From Candidatus Zhuqueibacterota bacterium (lineage in GTDB: Bacteria > Zhuqueibacterota > Zhuqueibacteria > Oceanimicrobiales > Oceanimicrobiaceae): a DNA stretch of 49,448 nucleotides. The notes beneath the pieces are model-generated. The model did no database searches. It was not told the origin of the DNA and saw nothing but the letters and a program-made list of their open reading frames with translations. The stretch covers positions 1 through 49,448 of the forward strand of contig JAJDAG010000083.1 of NCBI GenBank assembly GCA_029262005.1, in the 5' to 3' direction. Both the position numbers and the translations under genes were made by a program. Of this stretch, positions 6,116 through 36,374 are shown one piece after another (position 1 is the first letter of the stretch; each line of letters opens with the position of its first letter).

Positions 6116-6140
6116 CTGTCTTGCGTGGAAAGTTGTAAAT

Positions 6141-16273: not shown

Positions 16274-16300
16274 GGTTTTACTCTTTCTTTATATCGCCGC

Positions 16301-16343: not shown

Positions 16344-16388
16344 TGGCCAAGTGAACAAAGGTATCAAATTGAGCCGATAACTACACCG

Positions 16389-19460: not shown

Positions 19461-20929
19461 CGGGCCATTTCCGCAAAGATCCTGCCCATATAGCGCGGCA
19501 GTTTGTCGAACGGCAATACAGCGGGCGCTACCGGCCTGCCGGGAAAGTGCGTCTTGACGACGGCCATATTCAGGTGTTTGAGCATCAGCGTGTCCAGCAA
19601 GACTTGATTCACTTTGATACCTACCGTAGACACCGCTTGTGCGAGGTATTCATCTAACAAGGAAATGGTATCCTGGCCACCCTTACGCCTTGTGGAAAGC
19701 CCTGGCATGGATTCGTCATGCGCCTCGACTTCCCGTGAACGCACGGCCTCGAGCCGCATTTGGTCGGCCAGATAACTGTCCATCCACATGGCCGTCTCTG
19801 CTCTGACATAGTCTGAACTCTGAAATCCACGACGGGCGGCTTCCTGCGCAAGATATTCATGTTCCATCATAATAATTGCCATATTTCTCAGACTGCTGCG
19901 AAAGGCACCCTTGTTGGCGAAGTTCAGTGGATATGGCCCAAACCGAAGCTTCCAGAGAAAATCCGCCAGGGTCCACTGGGACCCGTCGTCAAAAGTGACG
20001 AGCATCTCACGCAGACGTGCTTGAAGTGCCGCACGGGCCAAGTCATACTGGTTGTCCGACATCTGCACGGGCCGCATCCCCTCGCCGGCGGCATCGTTTT
20101 TCGATGCAATAGCAAACGTTTTCTCTATTTGCTCAGCCACAAAAGCGAGTTTTTCCGCCGGTACCTTGGTCTGCTTGCCGGCCATCACCGATTTGAAGAA
20201 TCTCCGATACGCCAGTTTCTTCTTTCGTGCCATCAGCTTCTTGCGCACCTGCTTCTCAAAAAAAGATGCGCCAGAACCGGCGGGAAATGGTTGCGCCCGC
20301 TCTTTTTCCACGCGGAACAAATAAAAAGCATCCTTGAATTCAACGGGCTGAGACACGTCTCCTGCCTGCAAACGCCACAGGACTTTCTCAACTACAGGCT
20401 CACTTTGCCCCCAGGATATGGTGTAGGCCGTGCCCAGTTCCCCCCAAATGCCGGAGTCTACAGAATCAGCAATCTTCCTGCGCGCCGAATCAGCATAGGC
20501 CCGCGATTCAAAAACCAATTCCTGGACATCCAGTGTTCTCCTCGCGTCGTTCATAGCGACTTTCAACTCACCGGCAGCCACTGTAATATCCGAAAACACA
20601 TCATTGAGGAGCGCTTCCAGCATGGCCTCTTTCTCGAACTGTCTTGCAAGCGCCTTAAACCGCGGCCGCTTGGCCAGACCATGTTGCCGCCCGCTCTGCG
20701 CCAATAATTTCTCCCCGATGAGTGAGGCCAAATAAAGCTGTCTTGATTGTTTATCGTTATCAGGAAACTGAGCAAAGTACGGCGTCAAGGCATATCTGGA
20801 CTTGAATTCATCGACTGAAATGCTGCGCTTACCGATAGTGGCCACTACAGTCGGATCCGGGTACTCCCGGCAAGAGAATAGGACCGACATCAATATAAGA
20901 AATGTAAATGTGAAATTTCTAAAACGCAA
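19457..20929 (-). CDS. Peptidyl-prolyl isomerase (SurA/PrsA-like) lipoprotein
   Basis: 490 residues. Signal with lipobox-like VLFSC, Cys20 lipidated. The N-terminal part (VVATIGKRSISVDEFKSRY, 27-45) resembles the SurA_N/PrsA chaperone region that cradles clients. A parvulin-like domain lies at about 130-215 (LDVQELVFESRAYADSARRK, then WGELGTAYTISWGQSEP and VLWRLQAGDVSQPVEF). Parvulins isomerise Xaa-Pro bonds in unfolded secreted proteins. The C-terminal half (~250-490) is helical and less typical. Four bases after the SGNH-TPR gene and overlapping the large GH13 gene by 4 nt, it is tightly coupled to both. It may be a dedicated foldase for the secreted amylases (inference). Start codon is TTG with AGGTAG just before it; the next ATG would fall inside the signal peptide. 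Confidence 0.8.
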   Translation of the reverse strand: MRFRNFTFTFLILMSVLFSCREYPDPTVVATIGKRSISVDEFKSRYALTPYFAQFPDNDKQSRQLYLASLIGEKLLAQSGRQHGLAKRPRFKALARQFEKEAMLEALLNDVFSDITVAAGELKVAMNDARRTLDVQELVFESRAYADSARRKIADSVDSGIWGELGTAYTISWGQSEPVVEKVLWRLQAGDVSQPVEFKDAFYLFRVEKERAQPFPAGSGASFFEKQVRKKLMARKKKLAYRRFFKSVMAGKQTKVPAEKLAFVAEQIEKTFAIASKNDAAGEGMRPVQMSDNQYDLARAALQARLREMLVTFDDGSQWTLADFLWKLRFGPYPLNFANKGAFRSSLRNMAIIMMEHEYLAQEAARRGFQSSDYVRAETAMWMDSYLADQMRLEAVRSREVEAHDESMPGLSTRRKGGQDTISLLDEYLAQAVSTVGIKVNQVLLDTLMLKHLNMAVVKTHFPGRPVAPAVLPFDKLPRYMGRIFAEMAR

Positions 20930-20933
20930 AGAA

Positions 20934-23021
20934 CTACCTGTCCTTTATTTTGGCCCAGAGCTCTGTGAGCCCGGGGTGGTCTGGATAAGACTTCAGCAAA
21001 ACTTGACAGTTGGCCTGAGCCTGGCCAAACTCTCCCATTTTGGCGAGAGCGACTGTGAGATTATATAGGGTCTCCGGGTCATCGGGTTGCACTCTTAGTG
21101 CGCGCTGTAAAAATGGCAGTCCTCGTTCCGGATTGCCGGCATTTACATGAATTGACCCGAGCCATTTGTTGGCAATCGCAGACTCATTCACCCGGAGCGA
21201 CTTCTCGAAAATGTTCGCCGATGCGGCAAAATCCTGCATCTCCAGGTAGAGCAAACCCAGTCTGAGATATGGCGACAAGTTGTATGGTGTTCCCCGCACC
21301 AGCGCCCGATACTCAGCCGCCGCGCGTGCAAGCTGCTTGTTCTTTGCGTAGAACTCTGCCAGGTCAACGTGCGACTGCTCCCAGTTTTTTTTATCGCGAA
21401 AAACCTCGTATGCCACCTCTTGCATCTTATTCGCCGGTTGGTACTCGCTGGCAAAGTTCGGCTCACCCCCCCGTTTGAACGGCCACCCGGACATCAACAC
21501 ATCTGTTTTTATTTTTGCGACTTCCAAGTCAACCGGCGTCAGTTCCAGACGTTGCCAGTACTCGTCGTCGCTGCCAATGGTTGCGGTGTCCCACTGCGCG
21601 GCAGGCAGATCATGTTCTATCATTGCATCAAAAAAGGCAAGCGTCATTTGAAAATAGCCTTTTAGATTTGGATGTAGATGCTCCAGCATCAGATTGGTGC
21701 CAATCAACGAGTCCGGCGACGCAGCTTCGAAATAGTGCTTCATCCTCACGACCGGAACATCGTGTTTGGCAGCCACTTGATGGATTGTCCGGTTAAAATC
21801 TTCACTGGCGCGGAATCTGAGCGCATCTAAATCTTTTGCTCGGTAAAAGGCTGCACGAGCAGCAGCCGGCTTTCCAGAAGCATGCAGGCTACGCGCCACC
21901 TGAAAGTGCAAACCGGCAACACCATCATCCAACTCAGCAGCTTTTCTAAACGCGTTCAAAGCCTCCTCAAAGCGACCCGCCTTCTGAAACTGCCTGCCAC
22001 GATTAAACAAATCGTTCCACGCCAAAGGTCGTTTCCCGGTTTTGTAGACCGACTCGAAAGGCACCTGATCCCGGATATTGCAAACGAGCTCACTGAGCAA
22101 GATCGGCACTTTGCTGGCCCGTGCAATACCAATGATATCCAGCAGATTTTGCTCGAATATCTCCACGGCTTTATGATACTCATCACTGCCAAAACGAATC
22201 TGCTTGTTACCGACCATCCTTTCCATCAAAGTCGCATTTTCAGGTCTTTGTTGGTCTCCACCTCCCGGGCTCTTAGCCTTTACCCAGCCAATGAAACTGC
22301 GCAACAAGTAAAACACTTTTGAATGTTGCAGCCGGATGACCAAATTAACCAGGCCGCGATATTGGCCCAAAACTTCTGTGGAACTGATACCTAAAGCACC
22401 ATAAAACTCGTTATGACCAGCGTAAATAAGAAAGGCATCGGGTTCGTAGTCGACCAGCTCATCCATAAAATCAAGTACGGTGTAGGAGTTGACGGCCGGC
22501 ATCGCCAGGTTGACCACTTCGATCTGCCTGTTCGGCAAGGCATCCTCGAGCCTCGTCGCCAGCATCCGAGAAAAAGCGCCGTTATGGAAGTAGGGAAATC
22601 CCGCCGCCGTCGAGCCGCCGAGCACAAAAATCCGGCAGCCGTTGGCGGGTTTCTCCTTGAGAATGGCGTCATAAGAAGTTGCCGGGGCCAGGTCCTTGAC
22701 AAAAAAATATCTGCGCCCGACCTGATGGTTGGTTACCCAATATCTGGTATCATTCTCCAAGGATGAAAAAATATCCAGGCGAGGCCCGTAATTGAACAAA
22801 CGAAGGACTCCTTCGAGCAATATGAAAAAAAGCACTGGTATCAGCGCGGCAAGCAGCCTGAACGCCCGTGATTTCATCCGTGCGGATGGTGAGGTCAAGG
22901 TAGCCACATACGCCTCAACCACAGTAAGAGGCACTTTGATTCGCCTGGACATTTCGACCGCCGAAAATCTGTGATGATGCTTTTCTATGAAGTTTTTTTG
23001 CTTATTTGTCAATTCGTTCAT
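20934..23021 (-). CDS. Membrane-anchored SGNH/GDSL-like hydrolase with TPR repeats
   Basis: 695 residues. Residues 1-45 are charged and contain an HTH-like stretch (FSAVEMSRRIKVPLTVVEAYV). A single membrane helix follows at about 53-75 (LLAALIPVLFFILLEGVL). The SGNH-like domain spans ~80-460: block I is IFVLGGSTAAGFPY (GGST instead of GDSL), block III AGHNEFYG, and the last block HLHPNLKGY with the His. Within it at ~340-400 are TPR-like helices (FEEALNAFRKAAEL). The C-terminus (~555-690) holds four or so TPR units (SPYLRLGLLYLEMQDFAASA, ETLYNLTVALAKMG). The family hydrolyses esters, often on cell-envelope glycans; no substrate is known here. It lies between the FG-GAP protein (16 bp) and the PPIase (4 bp), so it is co-transcribed with secretion-related genes. 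Confidence 0.78.
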   Translation of the reverse strand: MNELTNKQKNFIEKHHHRFSAVEMSRRIKVPLTVVEAYVATLTSPSARMKSRAFRLLAALIPVLFFILLEGVLRLFNYGPRLDIFSSLENDTRYWVTNHQVGRRYFFVKDLAPATSYDAILKEKPANGCRIFVLGGSTAAGFPYFHNGAFSRMLATRLEDALPNRQIEVVNLAMPAVNSYTVLDFMDELVDYEPDAFLIYAGHNEFYGALGISSTEVLGQYRGLVNLVIRLQHSKVFYLLRSFIGWVKAKSPGGGDQQRPENATLMERMVGNKQIRFGSDEYHKAVEIFEQNLLDIIGIARASKVPILLSELVCNIRDQVPFESVYKTGKRPLAWNDLFNRGRQFQKAGRFEEALNAFRKAAELDDGVAGLHFQVARSLHASGKPAAARAAFYRAKDLDALRFRASEDFNRTIHQVAAKHDVPVVRMKHYFEAASPDSLIGTNLMLEHLHPNLKGYFQMTLAFFDAMIEHDLPAAQWDTATIGSDDEYWQRLELTPVDLEVAKIKTDVLMSGWPFKRGGEPNFASEYQPANKMQEVAYEVFRDKKNWEQSHVDLAEFYAKNKQLARAAAEYRALVRGTPYNLSPYLRLGLLYLEMQDFAASANIFEKSLRVNESAIANKWLGSIHVNAGNPERGLPFLQRALRVQPDDPETLYNLTVALAKMGEFGQAQANCQVLLKSYPDHPGLTELWAKIKDR

Positions 23022-23037
23022 CGCGTAACTATCGGGC

Positions 23038-24801
23038 TTAAGGCAACAGCAGTACTTTCCGACTTTGTCGCAAATTGCCCGACACTATTTGTATCACGTA
23101 GACGCCGTTCCCAAGACGCTTGCCGGAATCCGAGCGCCCATCCCACTGCAGCGAATAAGACCCGGGTTGGCGCACTTCCCGGGCGAGCGTCCGAACCCTT
23201 TGCCCGACTATATTAAAAACGGCAACCTGAAAAGCAACAGCAGCGTTCCCACCCAAAGTAAGTGGCAGACTTATGTTCCCTGTCGATTCTGTTCTCGAAA
23301 ACGGATTGGGGTAACCCCGCCCCAGCGAGAAGTCTCGTGGCCCCTGCAGCGTTCCGCCGGCAACTGAAGTCACGGTGCCAACCCCCTCCTCAATTAGGAT
23401 TTCCTGATTGAGGGTGACACCGTCACCAAATCGCTCGACCAGCCCAGATGGCCAGTGAATTTCAAGCTCATCAACGCTACTGACTTGTGCCAGCCCAAAA
23501 TGAACAACGGGGCTGTTTTGTGAAAACCATCCCATTCCACCTGAAACTTCCCGGGTTTGCTCGAGATGACCGGCACGCAAAATGACACGCGCACCGAGCG
23601 CATCCCGATTGCTCTGTGTGCCGCGCAACCTGATTTTGAGCCAATTGTTGCCTGAGCCGAGATTTCTGAAGAGCTGGTTCGACCTACCTTCGTTGGTGAC
23701 AAACAAGTCAATGTAGCCGTCGCGGTCCACGTCGCCACAGGCTGCGGCAAACCCCGACAGCAGGCTGCTGCTCGGATCCCCTGCGTTCACAACGGTGAAT
23801 GTACCGTCGTGGTTGTTGTGGTACAGAACATTTGGATCCGGCGGCGAGTTGAAACTACTGGCGTTAACAATGTACAAATCAAGCCAGCCATCGTTATTGT
23901 AATCCAGCCAGGTCACGCCCCAACCCATGCCGATATCAGCCACCCCTGCCGATTGCGTAACATCGGTGAAAGTTCCGTTGCGGTTGTTTTCAAACAAGAG
24001 ATTTTCGAACATGTTGGTGATATACAAGTCCAGATATCCGTCATTATTAAAATCTGCAAAAGCCGGCGCCATGCCCTCAGCCTGAACGGCCAAACCTGCC
24101 TGGTCTGCCACGTCTGTGAACGTACCGTCGCCGTTGTTTCTGTACAAATTATTGGCCTGTCTTCCATCGTAAACGAGATAAATATCTTGATCACCGTCGT
24201 TATCATAATCTACGATAGCAAGTCCCATGGCATTGGCTCGCCCCCAAACACCCGTGCTTACAATGACGTTCGTAAATGTGAGACCGTCGCGTGCGTGGTA
24301 AAAGGCGTTCTCACCTGCTCGATTGAAAATAAAAATGTCCAGCAAACCGTCATTGTCATAGTCGATAAAACCTGTTGCTTCCGTTTTGAGCACATCCCCT
24401 ACGCCGGCCTGGTCAGTTTGGTCTGTAAATACGCCGGCCTGGTTTATGAACAGCAGATTGGGTTCATCTATGCCGGCCATATAAAGGTCTAAAAAACCGT
24501 CGTTGTTGATGTCTCCCCAAAGTGCCATACCGCTGTTGCCGACAACAGCCAGATTGTTTTGCGTGGCCACTTCTGCAAATGCGCCGTCGCCGCGATTGCG
24601 GAACAGCAGGTTCGGCTGCCCTTTCCTGGACACAAAAATGTCCACGAAACGATCCCCGTCAAAATCCATGATGGCCACAGCTTTGTTACCCCCGGCAGAA
24701 AATATGCCCGCCTGGCTGGTGACTTCTTCAAACAATTTAGATTGTGCCTGCAGACCAGTCGTCAGCAAAAACAAAATCGTTGATAGCACAAGCTGATTCA
24801 T
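23038..24801 (-). CDS. Secreted FG-GAP/VCBS-repeat protein with ASPIC domain and sorting module
   Basis: 587 residues from the ATG at 24801, which directly begins a good signal peptide (MNQLVLSTILFLLTTGLQAQ). The open frame extends 26 codons further upstream, but that part overlaps a terminator. Residues ~25-400 form a seven- to eight-bladed propeller of FG-GAP/VCBS repeats with DFDGDRFVDIF, DYDNDGLLDIFIF, DYDNDGDQDIYLV and similar calcium-binding loops. An ASPIC/UnbV domain follows (WLKIRLRGTQSNRDALGARV, then ELEIHWPSGLVERF). The end is an FlgD-like sorting module (GYPNPFSRTES, VFNIVGQRVRTL, tail RKVLLLP). Likely a surface adhesion or glycan-contact protein. It follows a terminator, so it may begin a sub-operon of four genes down to the large GH13. 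Confidence 0.87.
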   Translation of the reverse strand: MNQLVLSTILFLLTTGLQAQSKLFEEVTSQAGIFSAGGNKAVAIMDFDGDRFVDIFVSRKGQPNLLFRNRGDGAFAEVATQNNLAVVGNSGMALWGDINNDGFLDLYMAGIDEPNLLFINQAGVFTDQTDQAGVGDVLKTEATGFIDYDNDGLLDIFIFNRAGENAFYHARDGLTFTNVIVSTGVWGRANAMGLAIVDYDNDGDQDIYLVYDGRQANNLYRNNGDGTFTDVADQAGLAVQAEGMAPAFADFNNDGYLDLYITNMFENLLFENNRNGTFTDVTQSAGVADIGMGWGVTWLDYNNDGWLDLYIVNASSFNSPPDPNVLYHNNHDGTFTVVNAGDPSSSLLSGFAAACGDVDRDGYIDLFVTNEGRSNQLFRNLGSGNNWLKIRLRGTQSNRDALGARVILRAGHLEQTREVSGGMGWFSQNSPVVHFGLAQVSSVDELEIHWPSGLVERFGDGVTLNQEILIEEGVGTVTSVAGGTLQGPRDFSLGRGYPNPFSRTESTGNISLPLTLGGNAAVAFQVAVFNIVGQRVRTLAREVRQPGSYSLQWDGRSDSGKRLGNGVYVIQIVSGNLRQSRKVLLLP

Positions 24802-24854
24802 GTTGTGTGAGAGGTTAATCTGGTGAAACGCCTGGATTGAATTAGACCGAGTAT

Positions 24855-24899
24855 GAAAAGGTTGGGCTGCCCGGAACATCGCCCAAACAGCCCAACCTG
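24855..24899 (-). terminator. Intrinsic terminator after the starch-binding-like protein gene
   Basis: AGGTTGGGCTG (24859-24869) and CAGCCCAACCT (24888-24898) form a perfect 11-bp stem, GC-rich, with an 18-nt loop. On the minus strand the stem is followed by TTTTCATACT. It lies 26 nt after the stop of the gene at 24925-26967 and separates it from the FG-GAP gene. Confidence 0.75.
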
Positions 24900-24924: not shown

Positions 24925-26967
24925 TTATTTCAGCAACAACATTTTTCTGGTTTGAACGAAATTTCCGGCTTCCAATTTGTACACGTAGAAGCCACTTGCA
25001 ACCTGGCGGCCGGCATCGTTTTGGCCGTTCCAGCGCACGTGGTAATTTCCCGCAACCTGATTCTCGGCTACCAGTGTGGCGATTTGCTGACCGATTAAAT
25101 TGTATACGGTCAACTTGACATCACCGCTTCTCGGAATGGAGTAGGTAATGGATGTCTCAGGGTTAAACGGATTCGGGAAGTTGTGGTCAAGCGCAAACTT
25201 GCCAGGTACGAAATCGCCTACCCGTTCAACGCTTGTCGGATTCGACACCATGGCGTTGTAATCCCAATGGTCATATTTCTTGGGATCAATACTGCCAAAC
25301 TGAGCGTGAATTGTGAACGCGCTCTGGCTGTCATCCACGTTGGCAACATGGTTGTTGCCAAAACCGCCCTCATTATCACCGCCCCAAACACCGAACTTAA
25401 ATACCTGGCCAACTCTTCCCATGGTACCCACATTCATACTGTCCGGTGAGAACATGTACTGACGCGTATAGATGGAATCGCCGGCAACAGCATCGCCGTT
25501 TGTCCCATCGTCGTACATCGTACGGGTTGTGTCGTCGTTAAGGGTGCCGCCCCAACTTTGCCAGTCACCTGTAGATAGGCCGTTTATACGGACGCCGTAC
25601 TTCAGTACACTGTCTGGATGCGCGATATCCCGACCGCCCTGAATGTCTAATAACGTGTCTGTCGGATTCGAAAAGAGCAGCTCGAAGATGGCTGGCCGCA
25701 TGTCTACCTCAAAAGTCATCAACACATTTTGAGATAGAACCTCGTTGCTCGGAAAGAAAGGCTGCCTATGCGGACTGAAATCATCGTCATCGGCGTCCGT
25801 GATGGTTGTTGCCTGAGCATCAATAGAAGCGCGACGACGTTCTGCCCGGCCTTGCTCGGTCTGACTCTCCGGCACAAAATCGAAATCAAAGTAGCTTTCG
25901 CGTATTTCCTGGCCAAATTTCTTCAACCGGTAATCATACTCAATAACGCCACCAAGTGTTGCAACCAGGGTGTCGCGACCGAAATAAAGACTCGTACCCT
26001 CAATCGAGACCATCGGAACGTCTACAAGTTCGTTGGCGGTTCCGGCGAAACCCACACGGGCGAACAATGTGTCGCCAGGGGTGAAGCCTCTGGATTGGAT
26101 TGCGCGCGTGATATCCGTCGTAAAGGTAAGATCGACCGTGTCCGAGTTCGATGCTCTGATAGGAACAGCGCCATCGAACCAATCCCAAACTACAGTCGTA
26201 TCATTAGGGCCGACAATAAATTTACGGTTGTCGGGGATGTTGTCTTCCCAGGATTTTGTGCCGGCGCTGGCATCGGGGCCGTCCAAAGTCACAAACTTGT
26301 AATTGATAGTGTCGCCAATCGCACTGGCAGGCAGATGGGTCACGCCCGACCAGAAGTTATCCGCCGGGTAGGTAAACTGGCCATCATTGTCACTCCCGGT
26401 CTCTTGCGTCAATGGTACCGGAGTACTCCAATCGCCATTGCCCTCAGGCCACTGGCCACGTGTTCCGACGAATTCATTATCCGCGTTGAAATTAGCAAAT
26501 CCTTGCATGTTGATACGGAGATAAACATCAATAGTATCGGTCTCAGTGTAGGGCCTGTATAGCGGATCGTTGCCCGAGGTGCCGTTATAGAACTGGACCG
26601 GAAGCGTGGTATCGGACTGACCGACCACCAAATTACGGTTGTTATTCGCTGTATTAACATTGCTTTCCCAGCCGTCACCGCCTTGCACCACGTCGGTGCG
26701 AACATTGAATTTGTAATCAACCATGTCACCGGCATTAAATGCGAGGGTAACGCTCCAGAGGTCGCCATCGACATGTTGCAGCTGACCACCGGTGTCATCG
26801 CTCCATGTTAAGGGGGCCGTGCCACCGCGGATCTGAACCATAGAATTGGGTGTTACCGTATCCGGAACCGTTGCCGTATTCATCCAGAAGGTAACGTTCA
26901 CTGTCTGCGCACCCGCAGCAGCATAAGTCATCATTACCAGTAAAATGGCAAACAAAACTCTTTTCAT
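24925..26967 (-). CDS. Secreted protein with repeated starch-binding-like (E-set/CBM20-like) modules and sorting module
   Basis: 680 residues. Signal peptide MKRVLFAILLVMMTYAAAGA. Module 1 (~22-135: VNVTFWMN, MVQIRGG, GDLWSVTLAF, DYKFNV) and module 2 (~145-270: IDVYLRINMQG, INYKFVT) both end in a similar block: NRNLVVGQSDTT then FYNG, and NRKFIVGPNDTT then WFDGA. This shows internal duplication. They look like the beta-sandwich starch-binding modules of CBM20/CBM26 or SusE/SusF type. A third module (~280-390) and a fourth (~415-580, with GDSIYTRQYMF) follow, then the sorting module NFPNPFNPETSITYSIP and tail RKMLLLK. No catalytic domain is seen. It likely holds starch at the cell surface. GGGAGAA precedes the ATG. 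A strong terminator follows the gene. Carbohydrate binding is inferred from fold-like patterns and context. Confidence 0.8.
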   Translation of the reverse strand: MKRVLFAILLVMMTYAAAGAQTVNVTFWMNTATVPDTVTPNSMVQIRGGTAPLTWSDDTGGQLQHVDGDLWSVTLAFNAGDMVDYKFNVRTDVVQGGDGWESNVNTANNNRNLVVGQSDTTLPVQFYNGTSGNDPLYRPYTETDTIDVYLRINMQGFANFNADNEFVGTRGQWPEGNGDWSTPVPLTQETGSDNDGQFTYPADNFWSGVTHLPASAIGDTINYKFVTLDGPDASAGTKSWEDNIPDNRKFIVGPNDTTVVWDWFDGAVPIRASNSDTVDLTFTTDITRAIQSRGFTPGDTLFARVGFAGTANELVDVPMVSIEGTSLYFGRDTLVATLGGVIEYDYRLKKFGQEIRESYFDFDFVPESQTEQGRAERRRASIDAQATTITDADDDDFSPHRQPFFPSNEVLSQNVLMTFEVDMRPAIFELLFSNPTDTLLDIQGGRDIAHPDSVLKYGVRINGLSTGDWQSWGGTLNDDTTRTMYDDGTNGDAVAGDSIYTRQYMFSPDSMNVGTMGRVGQVFKFGVWGGDNEGGFGNNHVANVDDSQSAFTIHAQFGSIDPKKYDHWDYNAMVSNPTSVERVGDFVPGKFALDHNFPNPFNPETSITYSIPRSGDVKLTVYNLIGQQIATLVAENQVAGNYHVRWNGQNDAGRQVASGFYVYKLEAGNFVQTRKMLLLK

Positions 26968-27093: not shown

Positions 27094-28131
27094 TCAAAAT
27101 GATATTCCAAAAGAGAGCATCTGAACATTTTCAAGCAGGCCGAAATCGGCGTAGGCGTAGTCCAGAACAAGGGTCGTGGACTCATGAATGTTGAGGGCAA
27201 GGCCGGCCCCGAAAGTTAAACCCTCCTCACTGTTCTCGCGAAAAAGAGATTTGTAGCCGCCGCGAACAAAGAACATGTCTTTGAACGAAAACTCAGTGCC
27301 AACATTGACTATGCCTGAGTTGTCATTGGGTTGGGTCGCCTCGAGCGAAAACACCAGGCGGCTATTTTCTTTGTACCTGATGAGGTCGCCGGAAATCCCA
27401 ACCCTGAAAATCACAGGTAGTTGAAACGATTCTGTCTTCAGGAGACCAACGATGGTTTCATTGTTGCCGGTTACATTGGGGTCGAGGTCCACTCTCTGAA
27501 TGAGGTCCTTTCCATCCAAATGCATTTCACTGCCAAGATTTGAGAAGCTAACGCCAAGCTGCAAATCGCGGAATTGTGTTATGAACAAAAGTCCAACATC
27601 AATGGCCACAGCCGTGGCGGTTTCGTTAAATATCTCTTGACTTATGAATTTGACACTGCCGCCGACTGAAAACAGGTCTGTGAGGTTTCGTGCGTAACTA
27701 ATGGTGGCGGCGATATCCTGTGCGGAGAATCGCTCGCCAGTGCCATTTGGTTCAAAAACAGTGGTGACGCGTTCTTCGCCAAAGTCGAGCGCAGTAAGGC
27801 TGAGCCCCACAGCGTTGCCGTTACCCAAATGAAGCACGAGGCCGGCCCAGTTGAAATTGGTATCCAGGAACCAGTTGCCGTGCACAAATTGAGCCTGCGA
27901 TAATCCCGATCTGGCAATTGCACCGGGGTTCCAGTAGATGGACGTTGGCCCGCCGGCGACAGCAGCGTAGGCCCCACCCATGGCGGCGCTGCGTGCACCC
28001 ACAGCGATACCCAAAAAATTAGCGGCGGTTGTTCCGACTTTGTCCTGAGCCGATAGCGGTTGAACCAACGCTGCTATGGCTATCAAAGTGGACAAAAACG
28101 TTCGCCAGTTGCTGCTGAATCGTCGAGTCAT
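27094..28131 (-). CDS. PorV/PorQ-family outer-membrane beta-barrel protein
   Basis: 345 residues from the ATG at 28131. GGAG (28141-28138) lies 6-7 nt before this ATG, while the upstream GTG at 28161 has no such site. Signal peptide with TLIAIAALVQPLSA. The mature N-terminus KVGTTAANFLGIAVGARSAA followed by MGGAYAAVAGGPTSIYWNPG is the hallmark of the PorV/PorQ (FadL-like) family. The rest alternates as membrane beta-strands and ends in Phe (LSFGISF), as expected for an outer-membrane barrel. In Bacteroidota PorV carries type IX secretion substrates to the attachment complex. Here it lies 30 bp after the 1335-residue protein and in one run with the TonB-dependent receptor, so a role in receiving or anchoring these proteins, or as a substrate channel, is possible. 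Confidence 0.85.
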   Translation of the reverse strand: MTRRFSSNWRTFLSTLIAIAALVQPLSAQDKVGTTAANFLGIAVGARSAAMGGAYAAVAGGPTSIYWNPGAIARSGLSQAQFVHGNWFLDTNFNWAGLVLHLGNGNAVGLSLTALDFGEERVTTVFEPNGTGERFSAQDIAATISYARNLTDLFSVGGSVKFISQEIFNETATAVAIDVGLLFITQFRDLQLGVSFSNLGSEMHLDGKDLIQRVDLDPNVTGNNETIVGLLKTESFQLPVIFRVGISGDLIRYKENSRLVFSLEATQPNDNSGIVNVGTEFSFKDMFFVRGGYKSLFRENSEEGLTFGAGLALNIHESTTLVLDYAYADFGLLENVQMLSFGISF

Positions 28132-28160
28132 CATTTGCTCCAAATCTAAAAGACCGACCA

Positions 28161-31100
28161 CTACTTGATAATTCCCAGTTTGCCCCGCTTCACACCAACC
28201 GAAGATTCAATAACATAGAAATAGATGCCATAAGCGACATCAAGGTTTTCTCGTGTCTTCAAATTCCAGGATATTGTGCCGTCATGGATGTTACCGGAGT
28301 GCTCCAGTGTCACAATGCGCTCACCCCGGGAGGTGAAAATATGCACTCTGGCATCGCTTGGCAACCGGGTGAAATCGATTTTTCGTTCGCCGCGCCCCCT
28401 GATGCCCGGAGGAGCGGACTGCTCAAAAGCCGTGGCCACGATGTATGGGTTCGGCACCACGCGAATTTGTTCGAGTGCGGCCGTTTGCTGTGCCCGCTGC
28501 TCGGTAACTACGGCGGGTTGCGTTGAAAACTCAAGCAGATCGCCGTTGCGGTACGGCTTCACGGTGTTCAAGGCCAGTACCACATCTTCGCCAAAAACTT
28601 CGGCGGTATCGTTGCCGGTGACAAAAAAGAACATGTCCCAGGTACGCACGAGCTCGCCCCCCACACCTTTTTCAAAGAACCGGATCTGATCGTTTGCCGA
28701 TATCGTGTTGTTTCGATCCCGGTCCGTAAACAGAATTTCGATCTGTTCATTCTCTGTCAGATTCCAAACTTGAAATTTCAGGGGAACGCCCGGTATGAAA
28801 ATTGGCGCCGGCGGCGGTAAAGAGGTGTCCACTATTGCATCAAAAAAACGAATCTCGTAATCGGAGGGGTATGGCAAGAGCGTCGCCGTGGTTCCGGCAA
28901 TAGGGTCCGTAATAACAGTGAAGTTGCTCTTGAAGGTAAACTTGAGCGGGGTCGCAACACTGAATCCGGAGCGCCCTTCATCAAGTGCAATGCTTGGCCG
29001 ATCGGGCGTATTATCGAACACCAGCTGAATGCCGTCAAAAACATCAGTGTCTCCGGTCTCAGCGGCAAACGGGCTGCGCTGAATATTCCGACTTTGGAAT
29101 ACCGGATAGTATTGATATGATATTGTATAGGCTTCGTCGTTCAGCAAACCTGTTGCCGCTGCCTTAATCTTGCCGTTTTCAGCGTCGAGCACATAGTTGC
29201 CGTTCGGAACCAGTTCTCCCGACAAACTGCGAATTTCAACTGTCCCTTCCACAATGTTCGTGTTGAACAAGTTGGCAAAAAGTGTGTCGCGCGCCGCAAA
29301 AAAGCCCGGTTCGCCGTTATTGGGCTCACCGTTGCCCTCTGTGCCGTCTTCATCTCTTGAACCTGCTATGAGCGCAGGCACACCGTCACTACCGATATCA
29401 CTGCTTGCGGCATCCCAATGAGAAACACCCGTCAAGTCTCGCACGGAATACGAGTATGTGACCTTGACCAGACGTTCCTCATTATCATTCAGGTCAACAT
29501 TTGGCTCTCCCGGGTCGGCCTTGCCGTTGCCTTCACTGCCATCTGCGTCGTTGGTGCCCGGCAAACCGTCATTGCCAACATCATCGGTGGCGAGGCGCCA
29601 GTTGTCGTTGTTGTCGATGCCGTCAGTGGATGTGTCGTCGAATTCCAATCTGTAACGGTGCCCGGTTTGCACCATATTATCCACCACCTCAAAAAAAGTG
29701 CGCCCAGTACCCACTGCGGCGATGGTTTCAAGCTCTTCTGAATTTTCCGGAGCGACAAATCCAGCCGCCGGTGCATTGGGAACGATCACTGCGGTATTTA
29801 TGTCGGTGAGGAAAGCCCCGGAGGAAAGCCTTGTCACAAACTTCGTGTTCTCCGAAGGAAAGATATCTGCCTCGGCGTCGCCACGATCATAAGCAACAAC
29901 GGCATAAAAATAGGTGCGGCCGTTATCGACATCATCATCGACAAATGTGTGCTGCAGGCCCGAATTCTCTCCAAGAAAAAAAGACAGCCCTCGAGCATCC
30001 TGTAGCAAATCATCGCTCGGTCTGAAAAAACCGGAGATGTTATTGGCCAAATCAAACTGCTTCAGGGGCTTGAAGGTGGTCACAACGCCAAGCGCATCGG
30101 TAACCTGAAATGCATCGAGAAAGCCGGCGTCGGTTGCTTTGAAAATTTTGTACCCCTCAAAATCTTTTATTCGCAGCACAGGATCGACGGAGTCCTCGGC
30201 CTCTCTGTCCCAATAGAGTGTTACTTTTCCATCTCCGGGAACGGCGGTGAGAATCGGCTTTTTGGGCGGCTGCGGAAAACGATAGTCGGCATCAAATATT
30301 TTCTGCACGGTCACGCGGTTTTTGAGCAGGTCATCAATAATTACATTCCTGCCGCCACCGTCGCCATAAACCAACGCCAGCGAGAACCTCTCAATGCGTT
30401 TGGCCAGCAACGGGAAGAACCCTGAACCGTAGACAAAATCTCCATCCTCACCATTAGTCGGTTTGTTATTTTGAATGGACGCCGGCACGGTAAAAAATCC
30501 AGGAGCCATCCGGCCCCACAATTCTTCGTCGTCGGCAAGATCAATGATATTGGCAGGTACAAAGTAGTCGAAACTAGTCAACCCGATCTGGTCGGACTCG
30601 TCGACGTCGGTCTGGTCGATGTTTGGCTCTCCCGCCGTCGGTACGCCGTCGTTTTCACCTGCATCGCCGGTATCAGGCTGGCCGTCGGCGCCAACATCAT
30701 CAAAGTCAGAATCCCAGTCGTTGTCATTGTCAATGCCGTCATCCCGGCGCTCGTCAATTAGTGAGTTGTTGATGCCATCACTATTGACATAGTCCACGTA
30801 CTTTTTCGGGCTGCGGATATCGATCAGGACATTGCCGTCCTGGTCGCGTCGGATTTGCCGAAAATGTAACTGCACATTCTCATCGATCAACCCATCGAGA
30901 TCATTGTCGATGCCATCGAATGCGTTCGGATTCACCTGCTCCTGTCCATTTACGATCAGAAGATTTCCTTCGCTTAACTCAGTAACCCCGGCTGTAACGG
31001 CGATTGTATTTTCTCCAACGCCGCTGCTGCGAGTCACAAACACAGTATCGCCGGCGGGCACGGTCACCAAAGTGCGTTCAAAATTCTGACCAACGATGAC

Positions 31101-32168
31101 AACCTGGTCACCAGAATTGAATATTCGCGGTTCGAAATTTTGCTCTGTAAAAAAAGGACCGGTCGGGATCAGAGCTCCCTCTGCGTCGCCATCGTTGTCG
31201 ATGCCATCGAAAGGATTTCCCGGGCTTTCCAAAAACGCGTAGGCCACGACGCCAACAGCGCTGCCAACCCAAAGCGGGTTGCGGCGCACATTATCATCGA
31301 AGTCTGCAGTAAAAGTCATATCGAGTTCAACATCGAAAAAGGAGTAATCGTCATCAAATTCGTTGCCGCTCTGGGTGTTGCCCGTCACGCCGATGTAGGT
31401 TCCCACGAGCATGCCAAAGGCAGCCCTTGTGTAATCGGTGGTACCCCTGTTTAAAATTTCATAGAGCCAGAAAATGGTATCTTGTGCAAGAAATTGTGCC
31501 CACTGCAATCCTCGTGCCTTCACCTCAAGACCCAGGCCGTTTCTGGAGGCATCATTGGCATCGGGCTTGAATGCGACTCCCAGCGAGTTGTTCAGGGCAG
31601 AATTGAACTCCTCATCATTGTCGTCATCAATAACAAAGAAACTCTCTTGGTCGGCGTTAAACACATCTTTGCCAAACAGGCCGTTCCAGGCACCTCGCCA
31701 ACCCGGATCTTCCGGGTCATCGAGCTTATCCGGCCAAAACGGTGGCCATGAATTTTTGTTGGTGCTCAGTGCGACTCGCCCCTGATTGTTATTGAAGTAA
31801 CGTCCGTCCGGCTCGAAACCCCAGAATTGGCCGGAGGAAGATTCCTCTTGATTCTGAGTGGGACGGGAAACCGGCGTAACAACTACGGAGTGAAAAACCA
31901 CACTATCAAGCGCTACTTCTGCGCCGACCATTGGGCTGACATCTCCGATATAGCCATTGTTATCATGAATCCAGGCACCTCGTGGCCCAGCCTCACCGGG
32001 CTGACCAATCACCCCCCAGTTGCCGAAGACTGTCTTGACCAGATTTGCATTGTGAATTGCTGATCTTCGGAATTGCCGGCCACTGTGCTGAGCATAACCG
32101 GTCGTCCAGAACAGAACAATCAAAATAGTCGTTACGAGAGCACCACGATAAGCAAGTCGTTTCTTCAT
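28161..32168 (-). CDS. Very large secreted protein with Asp-rich DGIDND repeats and C-terminal sorting-like domain
   Basis: 1335 residues from the ATG at 32168, which is preceded by CAGGGA at proper spacing and starts a signal peptide (MKKRLAYRGALVTTILIVLF). The frame extends to 32237, but that start would overlap the receptor gene by 29 nt. Several Asp/Asn/Gly loops occur: FDGIDNDGDAEG, FDGIDNDLDGLID, DGIDNDNDWDSDFDD, TDGIDNNDNWRLATDD. They resemble thrombospondin type-3/MopE-like calcium-binding repeats. A fibronectin-III-like domain lies near the middle (ILTAVPGDGKVTLYWDRE, FEGYKIFKA). The C-terminus (IRVVPNPYIV, VHIFTSRGERIVTL, tail GKLGIIK) is a PNPY variant of the sorting module. Function unknown. 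It is fixed between a TonB-dependent receptor (40 bp) and a PorV-like barrel (30 bp) and may be the surface-exposed partner of the receptor. Confidence 0.82.
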   Translation of the reverse strand: MKKRLAYRGALVTTILIVLFWTTGYAQHSGRQFRRSAIHNANLVKTVFGNWGVIGQPGEAGPRGAWIHDNNGYIGDVSPMVGAEVALDSVVFHSVVVTPVSRPTQNQEESSSGQFWGFEPDGRYFNNNQGRVALSTNKNSWPPFWPDKLDDPEDPGWRGAWNGLFGKDVFNADQESFFVIDDDNDEEFNSALNNSLGVAFKPDANDASRNGLGLEVKARGLQWAQFLAQDTIFWLYEILNRGTTDYTRAAFGMLVGTYIGVTGNTQSGNEFDDDYSFFDVELDMTFTADFDDNVRRNPLWVGSAVGVVAYAFLESPGNPFDGIDNDGDAEGALIPTGPFFTEQNFEPRIFNSGDQVVIVGQNFERTLVTVPAGDTVFVTRSSGVGENTIAVTAGVTELSEGNLLIVNGQEQVNPNAFDGIDNDLDGLIDENVQLHFRQIRRDQDGNVLIDIRSPKKYVDYVNSDGINNSLIDERRDDGIDNDNDWDSDFDDVGADGQPDTGDAGENDGVPTAGEPNIDQTDVDESDQIGLTSFDYFVPANIIDLADDEELWGRMAPGFFTVPASIQNNKPTNGEDGDFVYGSGFFPLLAKRIERFSLALVYGDGGGRNVIIDDLLKNRVTVQKIFDADYRFPQPPKKPILTAVPGDGKVTLYWDREAEDSVDPVLRIKDFEGYKIFKATDAGFLDAFQVTDALGVVTTFKPLKQFDLANNISGFFRPSDDLLQDARGLSFFLGENSGLQHTFVDDDVDNGRTYFYAVVAYDRGDAEADIFPSENTKFVTRLSSGAFLTDINTAVIVPNAPAAGFVAPENSEELETIAAVGTGRTFFEVVDNMVQTGHRYRLEFDDTSTDGIDNNDNWRLATDDVGNDGLPGTNDADGSEGNGKADPGEPNVDLNDNEERLVKVTYSYSVRDLTGVSHWDAASSDIGSDGVPALIAGSRDEDGTEGNGEPNNGEPGFFAARDTLFANLFNTNIVEGTVEIRSLSGELVPNGNYVLDAENGKIKAAATGLLNDEAYTISYQYYPVFQSRNIQRSPFAAETGDTDVFDGIQLVFDNTPDRPSIALDEGRSGFSVATPLKFTFKSNFTVITDPIAGTTATLLPYPSDYEIRFFDAIVDTSLPPPAPIFIPGVPLKFQVWNLTENEQIEILFTDRDRNNTISANDQIRFFEKGVGGELVRTWDMFFFVTGNDTAEVFGEDVVLALNTVKPYRNGDLLEFSTQPAVVTEQRAQQTAALEQIRVVPNPYIVATAFEQSAPPGIRGRGERKIDFTRLPSDARVHIFTSRGERIVTLEHSGNIHDGTISWNLKTRENLDVAYGIYFYVIESSVGVKRGKLGIIK

Positions 32169-32208
32169 GTTTCCCTGCGTCTGTTTCAGTTTCTGAGTGG
32201 GTAGCAAT

Positions 32209-35103
32209 TTAAAAATTGACACCCATTCCAATTTCAATTCTCCGTGGCTCGGAGAAATGCGTTTGATTGGTGTAAAAGTCGGTTTTGGTATTCACCACAT
32301 TCGGGAAACCAGTTTCACGGGCCCGCACTTCATCTACAGTGAAACGACCATCACCTGTGTCGTCGAAAACATTTATTTCGTTCAAAGTGTCAAACAGATT
32401 GAACACGCGCAAAAACAGATTTGCTTTCCTGCTGCCTCCCAACGGCACCTCATAGTAAGCGCGCAGGTCAAGACTGACGAAACCGGGCTTGTTTTCACTG
32501 TTGGTAAGCAACGTGGATACATCTGCGCCCGCACGCGGTGTAAAGGGTTGGCCGGAGCCATACTGAAAAATCAGGCTGCCGCCCCAGTTGCGCCGGGAGT
32601 AGGAGACGTTGGCATTAAGGGTGTGAAGTTGATCCCAATCGACATTTGTCAATTGAACCTCGGGATCGCGACCCTCAGCCCGTGCATTTCTGGCCGCTTC
32701 CGGATTGGAGTTCGTCGCTTTAGCAATTTGAAATGTGTAATCGAGATTGCCGGAAAATCCGCGGCTAAAGCGTTGGCCCACCGACAGGACAACACCGCGT
32801 ACGAAACCAAAGTCACTGTTGACTATTTTGTTGTAACTTTGCGACTCACCGAAAACCAGAATCGCATCCGAACTCGTGCCTGCAAGATCACGGATATCGC
32901 GAAAAAATATGGTGACATCCGTTGCAATGTCATCCGAAAGCTGTTGTTGCAGGCCGATTTCACCACTAATAGTAAACTCAGGTTTCAGATCGGCGTTTCC
33001 AATCGTACCTTGATTCCCGGTACCGGAGCCCAGCTCGAACTCTGGATTTTGATATAGGCGCTCAAAGCTCGGCACCTGGATGAAATACCCATATGAAAAA
33101 TGAAAGACCCCGCGATCGGTGATGGGGAAAGCTATACCAATGCGAGGACTGATACGCGTCTTTGTGCTGGCTTGCTTAAACCAGAATTGCTCCCTCTGAG
33201 CAATCGTGAGGGTCTCTTCACCGGGATCCTGAAAACCATCGCTATTGATGTCGTCAAAGCGATGTTCCGGCTTTATTGGATTGAAAATATTGGGATCCGT
33301 TTGATCGACGAGCACAACGCCGTCAGGGTCGAAATGGTCGATGCGCACGCCCAGATTCACGATCATGCTTTCAAACTCCATCTTGTCCTGAATATAGGCC
33401 GAGAATTCTATCGGCTTGTGCCGGTAAGTATCGTGAAACTCAGAACTGTTTGGCAGAACCTGAAAATCTACAAACGGATTGTCGGTTCCAGCATTGAATG
33501 ACCGCCCAACCGGCCGCAGGTCGATATCATCGAAAAAAATGTCGTGACGACGAAACTCAACCCCCGTTTTGACTTGATGATTGTTGGTGACTTGGCTTGT
33601 GATATCGAGCTTGCCCAAAAATGTTTTGGTTTCACGATGGAAGCGCTTTAGGTCGGTGCCCCCATTTCTGAAGCTGAAAGGCAACTCAGTCAACAAGTCG
33701 GGGTGGACATAGCGCTGTGGGTTGACGACCACTTGGCCTCCTTCTGCCGTCAAGAGCCGATTGCCGTCTGCGTCCGTTTGAAATTCCAGGTTCTCAAATG
33801 TCTTGGCTTCAAAGGTCTTGTCAAAAAGCGAAAAGCCAATGTCATAGAAAGTCCGGGCGCTGACGGCGTGGGTCCACTTGGCAATGTGCAAATTTCCAAC
33901 GCGGAACTTCTTTTGAGCACCGTCCGGATTCAAAAGGAAGGTTCTGTCAACCTCTCTGAAATCATCGTTGTTCCGCAGGTAGTTATAAGAAATTTTTATC
34001 GACGGGCTCAGCTTGTAGACCAGTTTTATCTGAGCAAACAACTCCTTACTACCATTCATATCGATGATTTTGCCATCGCCAATAGCAGAGGAGTCCGTCG
34101 GTATCAGCCGAAATGTGCTGTCGGCATTGAACACCGGAACGCCATTATCATCGGCTTCAAAGCTATTGGGAATAAAGTGTGGTAAAAATTTTCGTTGACC
34201 CCCAATCCAGCCGCCGCGGTTTATGTAGCGGCCGTTAACAAAGTAGAACAATTTATCTTTCAAAATAGGACCGTGCAGCGCTATTTCGAAATTGCGGGTG
34301 TCAAAAGGTGCTAACTCGTCAACACCCTTGAAGATGTCTGCGTTTGAACTCAGATGATCACCGGCATAAGTCGTAAATGAACCACCGAAGGAATTGCTGC
34401 CCTCTTTGGTTGCAATGTTAATGATGCCGGACTGCGCGTGGCCGTACTCGGCATTGAAAGCACCGCTGATCACTTGCAGTTCCTGCACAGCGTCTTTGTT
34501 AAAATCTATAACCGTGCCGCCATCGAACACATCGGTAACGGGGACGCCATCGACCAAGTAACCGATTTCCCCGGATCGCCCCCCGCGGATGTGCAGCGCC
34601 CCCTGGCTTGAAACAACGCCGGCCTGTAATTCTATTGCATCTGTCAGCTCCGCAATAGGCAGTGATGAGATCTCTTCAGCACCGACCACAGCGGTGGAAG
34701 CTGTCAGATCCCTCTGTACAAGCTCGCGTTCGGCGATAATGGTCACGCCCTCGCCAATGTCAACGACCTCCGGGCTGAGCTGGAAGTCAACTTTGGTGGT
34801 CAGATCGATTGAAACCCGGATATTTTGATAGGTCAACGATCCATACCCAATCATAGTGGCACGAAGGGAATAGATGCCCGGACTGATATTGAGAATAATG
34901 AAATTACCGTCGAGATCAGCGGCTGCTCCGGAACTCGTGCCCTCCAATATGATATTGGCGCCAGGTAGAGAATCACCGTTTTCGGCATCCGTTATCCGGC
35001 CTGCGAGCTTGCCGGTCGTCCCCGCAAATCCAGAATGAACTACCGTCAGACCACAGAAGATGGTCAGAACCGCAGCAAATAGTGTTCTGTATTGGATTTT
35101 CAT
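32209..35103 (-). CDS. TonB-dependent receptor with carboxypeptidase-regulatory N-domain (SusC/CirA-like)
   Basis: 964 residues. Signal peptide (TLFAAVLTIFCGLTVVHSGFA). An N-terminal CarboxypepD_reg-like beta-sandwich follows at ~31-110 (GKLAGRITDAENGDSLPGAN, LDGNFIILNISPGIYSL). The plug domain lies at ~130-240 (LHIRGGRSGEIGYLVDGVPV, VQELQVISGAFNAEYGHAQ, GIINIATKEG). The large barrel ends in ...GMGVNF with a C-terminal Phe. Such receptors import ligands across the outer membrane with energy from TonB-ExbBD, whose genes are not in the window. It is 63 bp downstream of the LacI-type gene and heads the cluster, so the ligand is probably starch oligosaccharide (inference). No SusD-like lipoprotein follows. 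Confidence 0.92.
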   Translation of the reverse strand: MKIQYRTLFAAVLTIFCGLTVVHSGFAGTTGKLAGRITDAENGDSLPGANIILEGTSSGAAADLDGNFIILNISPGIYSLRATMIGYGSLTYQNIRVSIDLTTKVDFQLSPEVVDIGEGVTIIAERELVQRDLTASTAVVGAEEISSLPIAELTDAIELQAGVVSSQGALHIRGGRSGEIGYLVDGVPVTDVFDGGTVIDFNKDAVQELQVISGAFNAEYGHAQSGIINIATKEGSNSFGGSFTTYAGDHLSSNADIFKGVDELAPFDTRNFEIALHGPILKDKLFYFVNGRYINRGGWIGGQRKFLPHFIPNSFEADDNGVPVFNADSTFRLIPTDSSAIGDGKIIDMNGSKELFAQIKLVYKLSPSIKISYNYLRNNDDFREVDRTFLLNPDGAQKKFRVGNLHIAKWTHAVSARTFYDIGFSLFDKTFEAKTFENLEFQTDADGNRLLTAEGGQVVVNPQRYVHPDLLTELPFSFRNGGTDLKRFHRETKTFLGKLDITSQVTNNHQVKTGVEFRRHDIFFDDIDLRPVGRSFNAGTDNPFVDFQVLPNSSEFHDTYRHKPIEFSAYIQDKMEFESMIVNLGVRIDHFDPDGVVLVDQTDPNIFNPIKPEHRFDDINSDGFQDPGEETLTIAQREQFWFKQASTKTRISPRIGIAFPITDRGVFHFSYGYFIQVPSFERLYQNPEFELGSGTGNQGTIGNADLKPEFTISGEIGLQQQLSDDIATDVTIFFRDIRDLAGTSSDAILVFGESQSYNKIVNSDFGFVRGVVLSVGQRFSRGFSGNLDYTFQIAKATNSNPEAARNARAEGRDPEVQLTNVDWDQLHTLNANVSYSRRNWGGSLIFQYGSGQPFTPRAGADVSTLLTNSENKPGFVSLDLRAYYEVPLGGSRKANLFLRVFNLFDTLNEINVFDDTGDGRFTVDEVRARETGFPNVVNTKTDFYTNQTHFSEPRRIEIGMGVNF

Positions 35104-35166: not shown

Positions 35167-36201
35167 TTATTGTGCAAGCCGATGCTGGTTCCGTTGTGCA
35201 CCACAAGTCTCCCGGACAACGATTTCAGTGCCAAGCTGCTTTTGGAAACCCTGATCCGGCAAGCTATCTATTCGGCTCATCAAGCGCTCGACTGCCAGCT
35301 CCCCCATTTCAATCGTCGGTTGCTTCACGGTGGTAAGACCGACGTAACTTGCTAACTCAATATCATCAAAACCGACAATAGCGATGTCTTCCGGGATGCG
35401 CAGATTCCGCTCGCGTACCGCCTGCATAGCGCCAATTGCCTGAATATCGCTGGAAACAAAAACGGCACGTGGTCGCGACTCTGACAAATCAAGCAACTGC
35501 AGCATGGCGGTGTACCCACTCTGTTTGTTGAAACCATCTGCTTCGTTGGCAAAATCGCATGCAACAAAATGCTGGTCGTGAAACGCGAGTCCATTGTCAC
35601 GAAGGGCCTTCTTGTAACCCTCCAAGCGCAACCGCGCAGGCACGCTGTTCAATTGACCATCAATCATTGCAATGTCATGATATCCAAGATCAATAAGATG
35701 TTTCGTTGCCAGGTATGCGCCTTCGACGTTATCAACTTTGATGGAATCCAAGTCCGGGTGAAAACTATCTACCAGCACGATCGGAAACCCTTTCTGGTTA
35801 AACACGGCCGCATCCTCATTCGATATCTCTAACGAAATGTAAAGAATGCCATCAACCCGGCGCTCTTTCAATACTCTGTTGAGGAATGTTTCCTTCTTAT
35901 TCGTTTGGTCTACGCTATAAAGAATCAGGTCATTCTCGTATTGAGTAATCTTGCGTTGAATCCCCGCGAGTAATTGCACAAAAAAGTACCCAGTAAAGAA
36001 AGGGATGATGCAACCGATGCTGTTGGTCCGTCTGCGCGCAAGGCTTTGCGCCATACTGTGTGGCTGATAATTCAGCTCTTCGATTGCTTGCTCAACCTTG
36101 AGCCGGGTTTTCTCGGACAGGTTCGGTTGTTTGTTTATGGCGCGTGATACTGTGCCAATGCCAACACCTGCCCGCTTTGCAACATCGTATATTGTTGCCA
36201 C
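35167..36201 (-). CDS. LacI-family transcriptional regulator
   Basis: 344 residues from a GTG at 36201, preceded by AAGGGA at 8-9 nt. The open frame extends upstream to 36303, but the extra 34 residues are Cys-rich and unlike the family. The N-terminal HTH is complete: ATIYDVAKRAGVGIGTVSRAI at residues 2-22 (positions 36198-36136), then the hinge PHSMAQSLARRRTNSIGCI. The periplasmic-binding-like sensor domain follows (YFFVQLLAGIQRKI, GFPIVLVDSF, YTAMLQLLDL, VGFDDIELASYVGLTTVKQP). It should bind an alpha-glucan-derived sugar and release operators. Its position at the head of the cluster marks it as the local regulator. A TTTGTGCGTACAAA palindrome in its own leader suggests autoregulation. Confidence 0.93.
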   Translation of the reverse strand: MATIYDVAKRAGVGIGTVSRAINKQPNLSEKTRLKVEQAIEELNYQPHSMAQSLARRRTNSIGCIIPFFTGYFFVQLLAGIQRKITQYENDLILYSVDQTNKKETFLNRVLKERRVDGILYISLEISNEDAAVFNQKGFPIVLVDSFHPDLDSIKVDNVEGAYLATKHLIDLGYHDIAMIDGQLNSVPARLRLEGYKKALRDNGLAFHDQHFVACDFANEADGFNKQSGYTAMLQLLDLSESRPRAVFVSSDIQAIGAMQAVRERNLRIPEDIAIVGFDDIELASYVGLTTVKQPTIEMGELAVERLMSRIDSLPDQGFQKQLGTEIVVRETCGAQRNQHRLAQ

Positions 36202-36225
36202 CCATATTCCCTTTCTATATGACAA

Positions 36226-36239
36226 TTTGTGCGTACAAA
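36226..36239 (-). promoter_or_regulatory. Candidate LacI-family operator in the leader of the regulator gene
   Basis: TTTGTGC-GTACAAA is a near-perfect 14-bp palindrome with central CG, the usual form of LacI-family operators. It lies 25-38 nt before the GTG start. The only similar site seen in intergenic DNA of the window is the one before glgA (6061-6074). Confidence 0.45.
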
Positions 36240-36374
36240 ATGAAGGCTGGGCCTTGCAAAAAAATGAACAGCGCGAAGCACAAAACTGAATGACGAACGA
36301 CAAGAGTTAACAGCAAATCTGGAAACACCTCTACGAAGGATAAGAAAACATCAAAGATTGGAAGTGCTTCCATG

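Follow-up and report, generated by a model that had tools for sequence, protein, structure and literature searches.

SusCD is the textbook route by which bacteria of the Fibrobacteres-Chlorobi-Bacteroidetes (FCB) group take up glycans. What may stand in the place of SusD is the question raised by a stretch of 49,448 nucleotides from Candidatus Zhuqueibacterota bacterium (assembly GCA_029262005.1, contig JAJDAG010000083.1; this whole stretch is hereafter the window), which belongs to a genome of 5.77 Mb that is 98.7% complete. On its minus strand a TonB-dependent receptor (TBDR), a large secreted protein and an outer-membrane barrel resembling PorV lie at the head of a starch cluster. The original prediction, made from the letters of the DNA, saw in the large protein a possible surface lid or ligand collector, sitting where SusD would be and delivered or held by the PorV-like partner. 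The analysis described here favours, with somewhat better than even confidence, a trio that forms a TonB-dependent glycan-uptake complex, SusCD-like in function, in which the type IX secretion system (T9SS) exports the capture protein and a dedicated PorV/PorQ-family barrel holds it. Ligand binding, the role as lid or collector, contact with the TBDR, a retained C-terminal domain (CTD) and import itself are what we infer from the evidence below.

A recurrent trio of genes

Open reading frame (ORF) analysis combined with Pfam and NCBIfam searches gave the minus-strand order LacI regulator, TBDR, large protein, PorV-like barrel, CBM20 protein with a T9SS tail, and then the alpha-glucan genes (Table 1). 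The trio that had been read beside the starch cluster is real, including the sorting-like end of the large protein, with 40 bp between the TBDR stop and the large gene and 26-29 bp between the large gene and that of the barrel.

Related genomes were sampled by means of searches and fetched stretches; trio counts refer to the fetched loci with a gap limit of 800 bp, and genomes (G), contigs (C) and loci (L) carry working numbers. The expectation that the same order would be conserved next to other substrate genes was borne out in several phyla, with many paralogues per genome, glycan-degradation neighbours, and SusD rare or absent. A relative of the large protein was recovered by protein search from 59 of 60 genomes, and the order TBDR, large protein, PorV-like barrel is present in almost every sufficiently long locus from KSB1, Neomarinimicrobiota, Caldithrix and contigs of Rhodothermales and other Bacteroidetes. 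Since gene set and order recur in nearly all related loci that are long enough, the arrangement is far beyond chance. In the phylum of one Bacteroidetes-titled record, the family was identified in 61 of 148 sampled genomes at E <= 1e-50.

The trio is also multiplied within genomes. PorV-family matches number 22-34 per genome (five genomes) and most of the strong ones adjoin a gene whose product shares the CTD of the large protein. G014 (3.6 Mb, 100% complete) encodes 18 proteins with this CTD, of which 17 belong to full trios (16 with the usual order and one, at L071, reordered as TBDR, barrel, large protein) and one with a receptor only (L072); 13 of its 22 Plug matches lie within these units, and five more trio receptors fell under the limit of the Plug search. 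G017 has full trios for 13 of 16 CTD proteins, and the genome of the window holds three full trios plus three CTD proteins without a trio. The middle proteins come in a long class of ~950-1380 aa, homologous along the whole length, and a short class of mostly ~690-890 aa, in which the common part is mainly C-terminal and in some also comprises the Fn3-like region; both classes go with receptors and barrels of the same kinds. In a mirror-tree comparison the distances of the three genes correlate at 0.81-0.87 within genomes (0 of 2000 shuffles), hence the trio is co-inherited, a result that is no evidence of the proteins touching, as linkage alone could produce it.

Some loci depart from the usual arrangement. 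The order TBDR, barrel, large protein occurs at L051 as well as L071, and the barrels of these two form a clade with full tree support. At L113 (3506-14478) and L118 (3141-13840), from two genomes, the TBDR adjoins a PorV-like gene and the CTD protein lies ~4-5 kb upstream. A pair of receptor and CTD protein without an adjoining barrel directly follows a full trio at L072 (8212-13754), where one barrel may serve both cargoes. L119 (75-11500; G003:C20) shows four CTD proteins, 595-1147 aa long and encoded head to tail, with no barrel or receptor nearby.

Receptor and large protein

The receptor has the plug (PF07715, 40.2 bits) and the barrel (PF00593, 98.3 bits) of a TBDR, both over the Pfam cut-offs. 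It falls outside the SusC/RagA type, scoring 65.8 bits on TIGR04056 against a cut-off of 368.25.

The large protein consists of 10.1% Asp and has a net charge of -105. No domain in Pfam reached its cut-off, the SusD family was absent among the Pfam and NCBIfam matches, and a PDB search with the sequence profile of the protein yielded no match. The AlphaFold2 (AF2) model of residues 28-1227, with a mean local confidence (pLDDT) of 82.6 and a predicted TM-score (pTM) of 0.76, is nearly all beta and not helical like SusD. VIA-align matched this model to dextran dextrinase with Z 19.7 (253 residues, 3.1 A), glucodextranase with Z 18.8 and GH94 phosphorylases with Z ~18. For the head, the supersandwich domains of GH15, GH94, GH116 and GH149 gave Z 16-20 and other supersandwich-fold proteins lower values. 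The part of dextran dextrinase, glucodextranase and GH94 that is matched by the head we take to be the beta-supersandwich domain of those enzymes; in the model of the large protein no catalytic helical barrel follows the corresponding part. Supersandwich domains were listed by VIA-align and a beta-propeller was not, a listing that is no test for a propeller.

Four Trp residues of the head within 21 positions (141, 145, 157 and 161), together with W223, are invariant or nearly so in the family alignment. The Asp-rich segment has 28 Asp within residues 421-540, its Asp columns are nearly invariant in the 34-row alignment, and judged by this pattern it probably binds Ca2+. Fold match, Trp patch and Asp-rich loops together suggest a glycan-binding head that is stiffened by Ca2+. 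For the next segment, Foldseek returned only weak, low-TM matches to Fn3 chains, and the motif W653..DFEGYKIY..YYYAVVAYD is kept in the family alignment.

Table 1. Features of the trio and its surroundings, in coordinates of the window
Feature	Position	Strand	Evidence
LacI-family regulator, upstream of the trio	35167..36303	-	PF00356, PF13377
TonB-dependent receptor, 964 aa: signal peptide, CarboxypepD_reg, plug, barrel	32209..35103	-	PF13620/PF13715, PF07715, PF00593 above Pfam cut-offs
Large surface protein, 1335 aa, T9SS-type cargo, proposed ligand-capturing partner	28161..32168 (ATG 32168)	-	ORF, gaps, 34-row family alignment
Sec signal peptide of large protein, residues 1-26, end ..GYAQ, lipobox Cys absent	32091..32168	-	Sequence reading; homologues alike
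Head, residues ~28-637: predicted beta-supersandwich, Trp-rich patch, inserted Asp-rich segment	30258..32087	-	AF2 model, VIA-align, Trp conservation
Asp-rich EF-loop-like segment (DGIDNDLDGLIDE, DDGIDNDNDWD...), residues ~421-530	30579..30908	-	Asp count, alignment
Fn3-like segment, residues ~634-790, limits inferred	29799..30269	-	Weak Foldseek matches, conserved motif
C-terminal sorting domain, residues ~1224-1335, divergent type A CTD	28164..28499	-	hhalign
PorV/PorQ-family outer-membrane barrel, ~345 aa, proposed shuttle and anchor	27094..28134 (likely ATG 28134 or 28131)	-	NF033709
CBM20 starch-binding protein, generic type A T9SS tail, next gene past the barrel	24925..26967	-	CBM_20 and TIGR04183
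Remaining alpha-glucan cluster: FG-GAP/ASPIC T9SS protein, TPR, rotamase, GH13 enzymes, SSF symporter, GH57, starch synthase	4513..24879	-	Pfam

Sorting end and T9SS

The tail of the large protein reads 'VVPNPY...KRGKLGIIK', resembling a sorting signal. Its last 112 residues were compared by hhalign with generic type A CTDs encoded in the same clusters, which gave a probability of 97.7% and E 2e-12. Because this profile-profile match is good but the single-sequence models of Pfam and NCBIfam leave the CTD under their cut-offs, it is considered a divergent subclass of type A, with a class consensus distinct from the generic one (VVPNPY...GRGxRxxxF..LP..IRIYT..GxLV...W.L.TKD..IAYGVYIYHV...GKFAVIK). 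When the CTDs of paralogous middle proteins were searched with named models, the PorZ CTD came closest (best E 5.6e-11). The models for type B CTD and PorP/SprF were matched by neither the large protein nor the barrel (NCBIfam, E up to 0.01).

The large protein has the Sec signal peptide and type A CTD of a T9SS cargo, and the genome encodes T9SS machinery. SprA, the T9SS translocon, was detected in all 60 genomes searched. The genome of the window has a PorU match of 842.6 bits, and its PorV-, PorQ- and PorV2-like genes are located apart from the trio, the PorV-like one at L093 (221 bits, slightly under the PorV cut-off) and the PorQ-like one at L090 (193 bits).

Canonical type A cargo has its CTD cut by PorU and is then linked to lipopolysaccharide (LPS) or released, PorZ of Porphyromonas gingivalis retains its CTD and is anchored at the surface by PorQ (PMC5562754, PMC10202324), and CTDs may be shielded from cleavage by cognate PorV-like barrels (PMC10202324). 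The extracellular loops of PorV are the place where substrate CTDs bind (PMC10994853). For type B cargo of Flavobacterium, dedicated PorP/SprF-like shuttles, often encoded by neighbouring genes, determine the final location (PMC9143113, PMC12618676).

The barrel and its predicted contact

With 194.5 bits on NF033709 (cut-off 90) the barrel belongs to the PorV/PorQ family; it lies under the equivalog cut-offs of both PorQ (NF033711, 101.3 versus 220 bits) and PorV (NF033710, 74.8 versus 250 bits). An orthologue barrel model is nearest PorV (8gl6_F, Z 34.7; 6h3i_F, Z 34.0), with FadL at Z 29.7. In the phylogenetic tree the trio barrels cluster together, separate from PorV, PorQ and PorV2, with modest deep support.

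At L039, an orthologous locus whose large protein is 67% identical, the large and barrel genes are in frame with one stop between them, and the last 130 residues of the large protein plus the barrel were modelled by AlphaFold2 as a single chain. The model has a mean pLDDT of 88.5 and a pTM of 0.86, with low confidence in the linker. By calculation, a pTM of 0.86 requires a relative error between CTD and barrel of ~2-4 A, versus a pTM of ~0.70 or less for an unplaced CTD; a defined arrangement of the two is therefore predicted. The CTD of the large protein is thus predicted to contact the barrel at an interface, an outcome whose absence was to count against the original prediction.

PorV-family barrel domains were also identified within open frames of 681-1115 aa (L092 4208-6250, L094 1333-4593 and G000:C142 35836-36663), which suggests PorV-type barrels fused to other domains.

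Glycan context and neighbouring genes

In loci of the window type, examined in a dozen families, the gene after the barrel mostly encodes a relative of the CBM20 T9SS protein. Pfam recognised CBM20 in six of ten of these followers (two above the cut-off, most weak) and the N-domain of alpha-glucan water dikinase in two more; the product of the window scores over the cut-off for both CBM_20 (31.3 bits) and TIGR04183 (36.3 bits). In many families the window-type trios also have LacI, GH13 and an SSF symporter (65-84% identical) nearby, with LacI keeping its upstream place in many of the loci. Neighbours of other trios include genes for GH94, GH16 plus malectin with CBM9, GH53, glucoamylase, GHL10 and CBM4/9. 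SusD, as represented by PF07980, the sole SusD model used, gave no match in 37 of 60 relatives, among them the trio-rich G013 and G014, and one match in the genome of the window.

In the starch cluster of G013:C9 (L120 4802-19999, L121 3-11099) tandem trios of different subclass precede GH13 and an SSF symporter, and one of the two may serve another chain length or branch type. T9SS-tailed FG-GAP/ASPIC proteins come after two different trios in the genome of the window (window 23038-24879; L085 9439-11340). Near the window trio lies a TPR/GDSL plus rotamase (SurA/PPIC-like) pair (window 19457-23021) with homologues near trios of several families; the pair might encode dedicated chaperones for outer-membrane or T9SS proteins.

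Proposed mechanism and alternatives

The large protein would enter the periplasm via Sec and then pass CTD-first through the SprA translocon. Its divergent CTD would be taken up by the trio's own PorV/PorQ-family barrel, not by the housekeeping PorV, and the barrel would remain bound, as PorQ does to PorZ, with the CTD probably uncleaved and the protein tethered next to the receptor. There the supersandwich/Fn3 part, with its many conserved Trp residues and a probable stiffening by Ca2+, would catch alpha-glucan fragments that surface amylases and CBM20 proteins produce, and would hand them to the TBDR for import with TonB energy. Other trios of the same genomes would follow the same process with other glycans.

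Several points weigh against this reading. Its weakest links are receptor contact, ligand binding and retention of the CTD. The supersandwich fold that the head shares with carbohydrate-active enzymes is no proof of function or of sugar binding. CTD proteins without a neighbouring barrel make up three of six in the genome of the window and five of eight in G003. Some trios could not be linked to a glycan, and an M28 peptidase adjoins one of them. Moreover, the fusion model employs an orthologue, its linker contains the signal peptide of the barrel with the stop codon read as Gly, and the contact is read from its pTM.

An alternative that we hold to be unlikely is that the barrel is merely a transient shuttle, the CTD being cut by PorU and the large protein ending up linked to LPS or set free to act as adhesin, scaffold or enzyme, with the TBDR just co-regulated. 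PorU is in the genome, canonical type A cargo is handled in this manner (PMC5562754, PMC10202324), and the supersandwich fold occurs in epimerases and in domains of enzymes. However, no cargo would need a barrel of its own if the housekeeping PorV took care of type A cargo, dedicated barrels accompany retained or targeted cargo (PMC9143113, PMC12618676), the closest named CTD is that of PorZ, a retained one, and the TBDR lies within the unit in nearly all copies of G014 and G017. The receptor could also act in export, making the trio a dedicated protein-secretion unit; big cargo adjoins the TBDR, and a precedent is Oar, the TBDR reported to work in the export of PopC in Myxococcus (PMC6434023). 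This we consider improbable, as the T9SS translocon and a cargo-type CTD suffice for export, and most sampled trios lie beside glycan-degrading genes, that of the window beside a sugar symporter and LacI.

Equally improbable in our judgement is a large protein that is foremost a calcium-dependent adhesin, holding cells to insoluble glycan with uptake as a secondary matter: Asp-rich loops, the Fn3-like part, large size and surface display would suit such a role, but it leaves unexplained why there is one TBDR per large protein and why TBDR and cargo are co-inherited. The FadL-type fold of the barrel (Z 29.7 to FadL) would finally allow for a transporter of hydrophobic compounds whose adjacency is incidental; this is very improbable, since PorV is nearer than FadL (Z 34.7, 22% identity), the curated model puts the barrel in the PorV/PorQ family, and almost all G014 and G017 copies are linked to CTD proteins. 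Taken together the earlier reading of the trio is supported, and the idea of a protein delivered or held by its PorV-like partner fits the precedents of PorQ-PorZ and SprF-SprB.

Relation to known systems and implications

The trio resembles SusCD/RagAB of Bacteroidota in that a TBDR has an adjacent large surface partner, in many copies, within glycan loci that also hold starch-binding helpers and a regulator. It differs in that the receptor is far under the SusC cut-off, in that the partner is not SusD and no lipoprotein, being beta-rich with a T9SS CTD, and in that a PorV/PorQ-type barrel belongs to the unit. PorQ-PorZ of P. gingivalis likewise joins a PorV/PorQ-family barrel to a surface protein with a CTD; the trio barrel has a better score for PorQ than for PorV and paralogue CTDs are nearest that of PorZ. 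PorQ-PorZ, however, is a single processing module, whereas the trio pairs are cargo-specific, receptor-linked, multiplied and below the equivalog cut-offs of PorQ and PorZ. SprB-SprF of Flavobacterium shares with the trio a dedicated barrel gene beside its own large T9SS cargo, but uses a type B CTD and a PorP/SprF barrel and has no receptor gene, in contrast with the type A-like CTD and PorV/PorQ-type barrel described here. In the Bacteroides vitamin B12 importer BtuB-BtuG (PMC10404256) a TBDR is also paired with a non-SusD surface partner; BtuG is a surface lipoprotein, and the importer is not known to include a T9SS CTD or a PorV-type barrel. The trio barrel is a member of NCBIfam NF033709, 'PorV/PorQ family protein', a family name that is silent on the function of the trio copies and on the unit.

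No description of the trio was found in the literature searched, which left most subscription journals and preprints outside. All component types are known; the combination, the SusD-replacing role and the expansion are the part that was not found described there. There is a substantial chance that the trio merits a class of its own. Whether this amounts to a separate class of TonB-linked uptake, with a T9SS-exported, barrel-anchored capture protein in the place of SusD, spread across several FCB phyla with at least a dozen copies in a genome, and the hallmark of SusD-free polysaccharide utilization loci, we regard as evenly balanced.

SusD-less loci are easily overlooked by methods that detect SusCD pairs. 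If the trios are importers, many genomes of KSB1, Neomarinimicrobiota, Calditrichota and Rhodothermales would hold unrecognised polysaccharide utilization loci, the substrates of which could be deduced from the enzymes encoded nearby. Nutrient importers would then routinely be assembled by way of the T9SS, with PorV/PorQ-type barrels as permanent importer subunits, which would account for the 20-30 PorV-family genes in these genomes and add the construction of import machines to the tasks of the T9SS.

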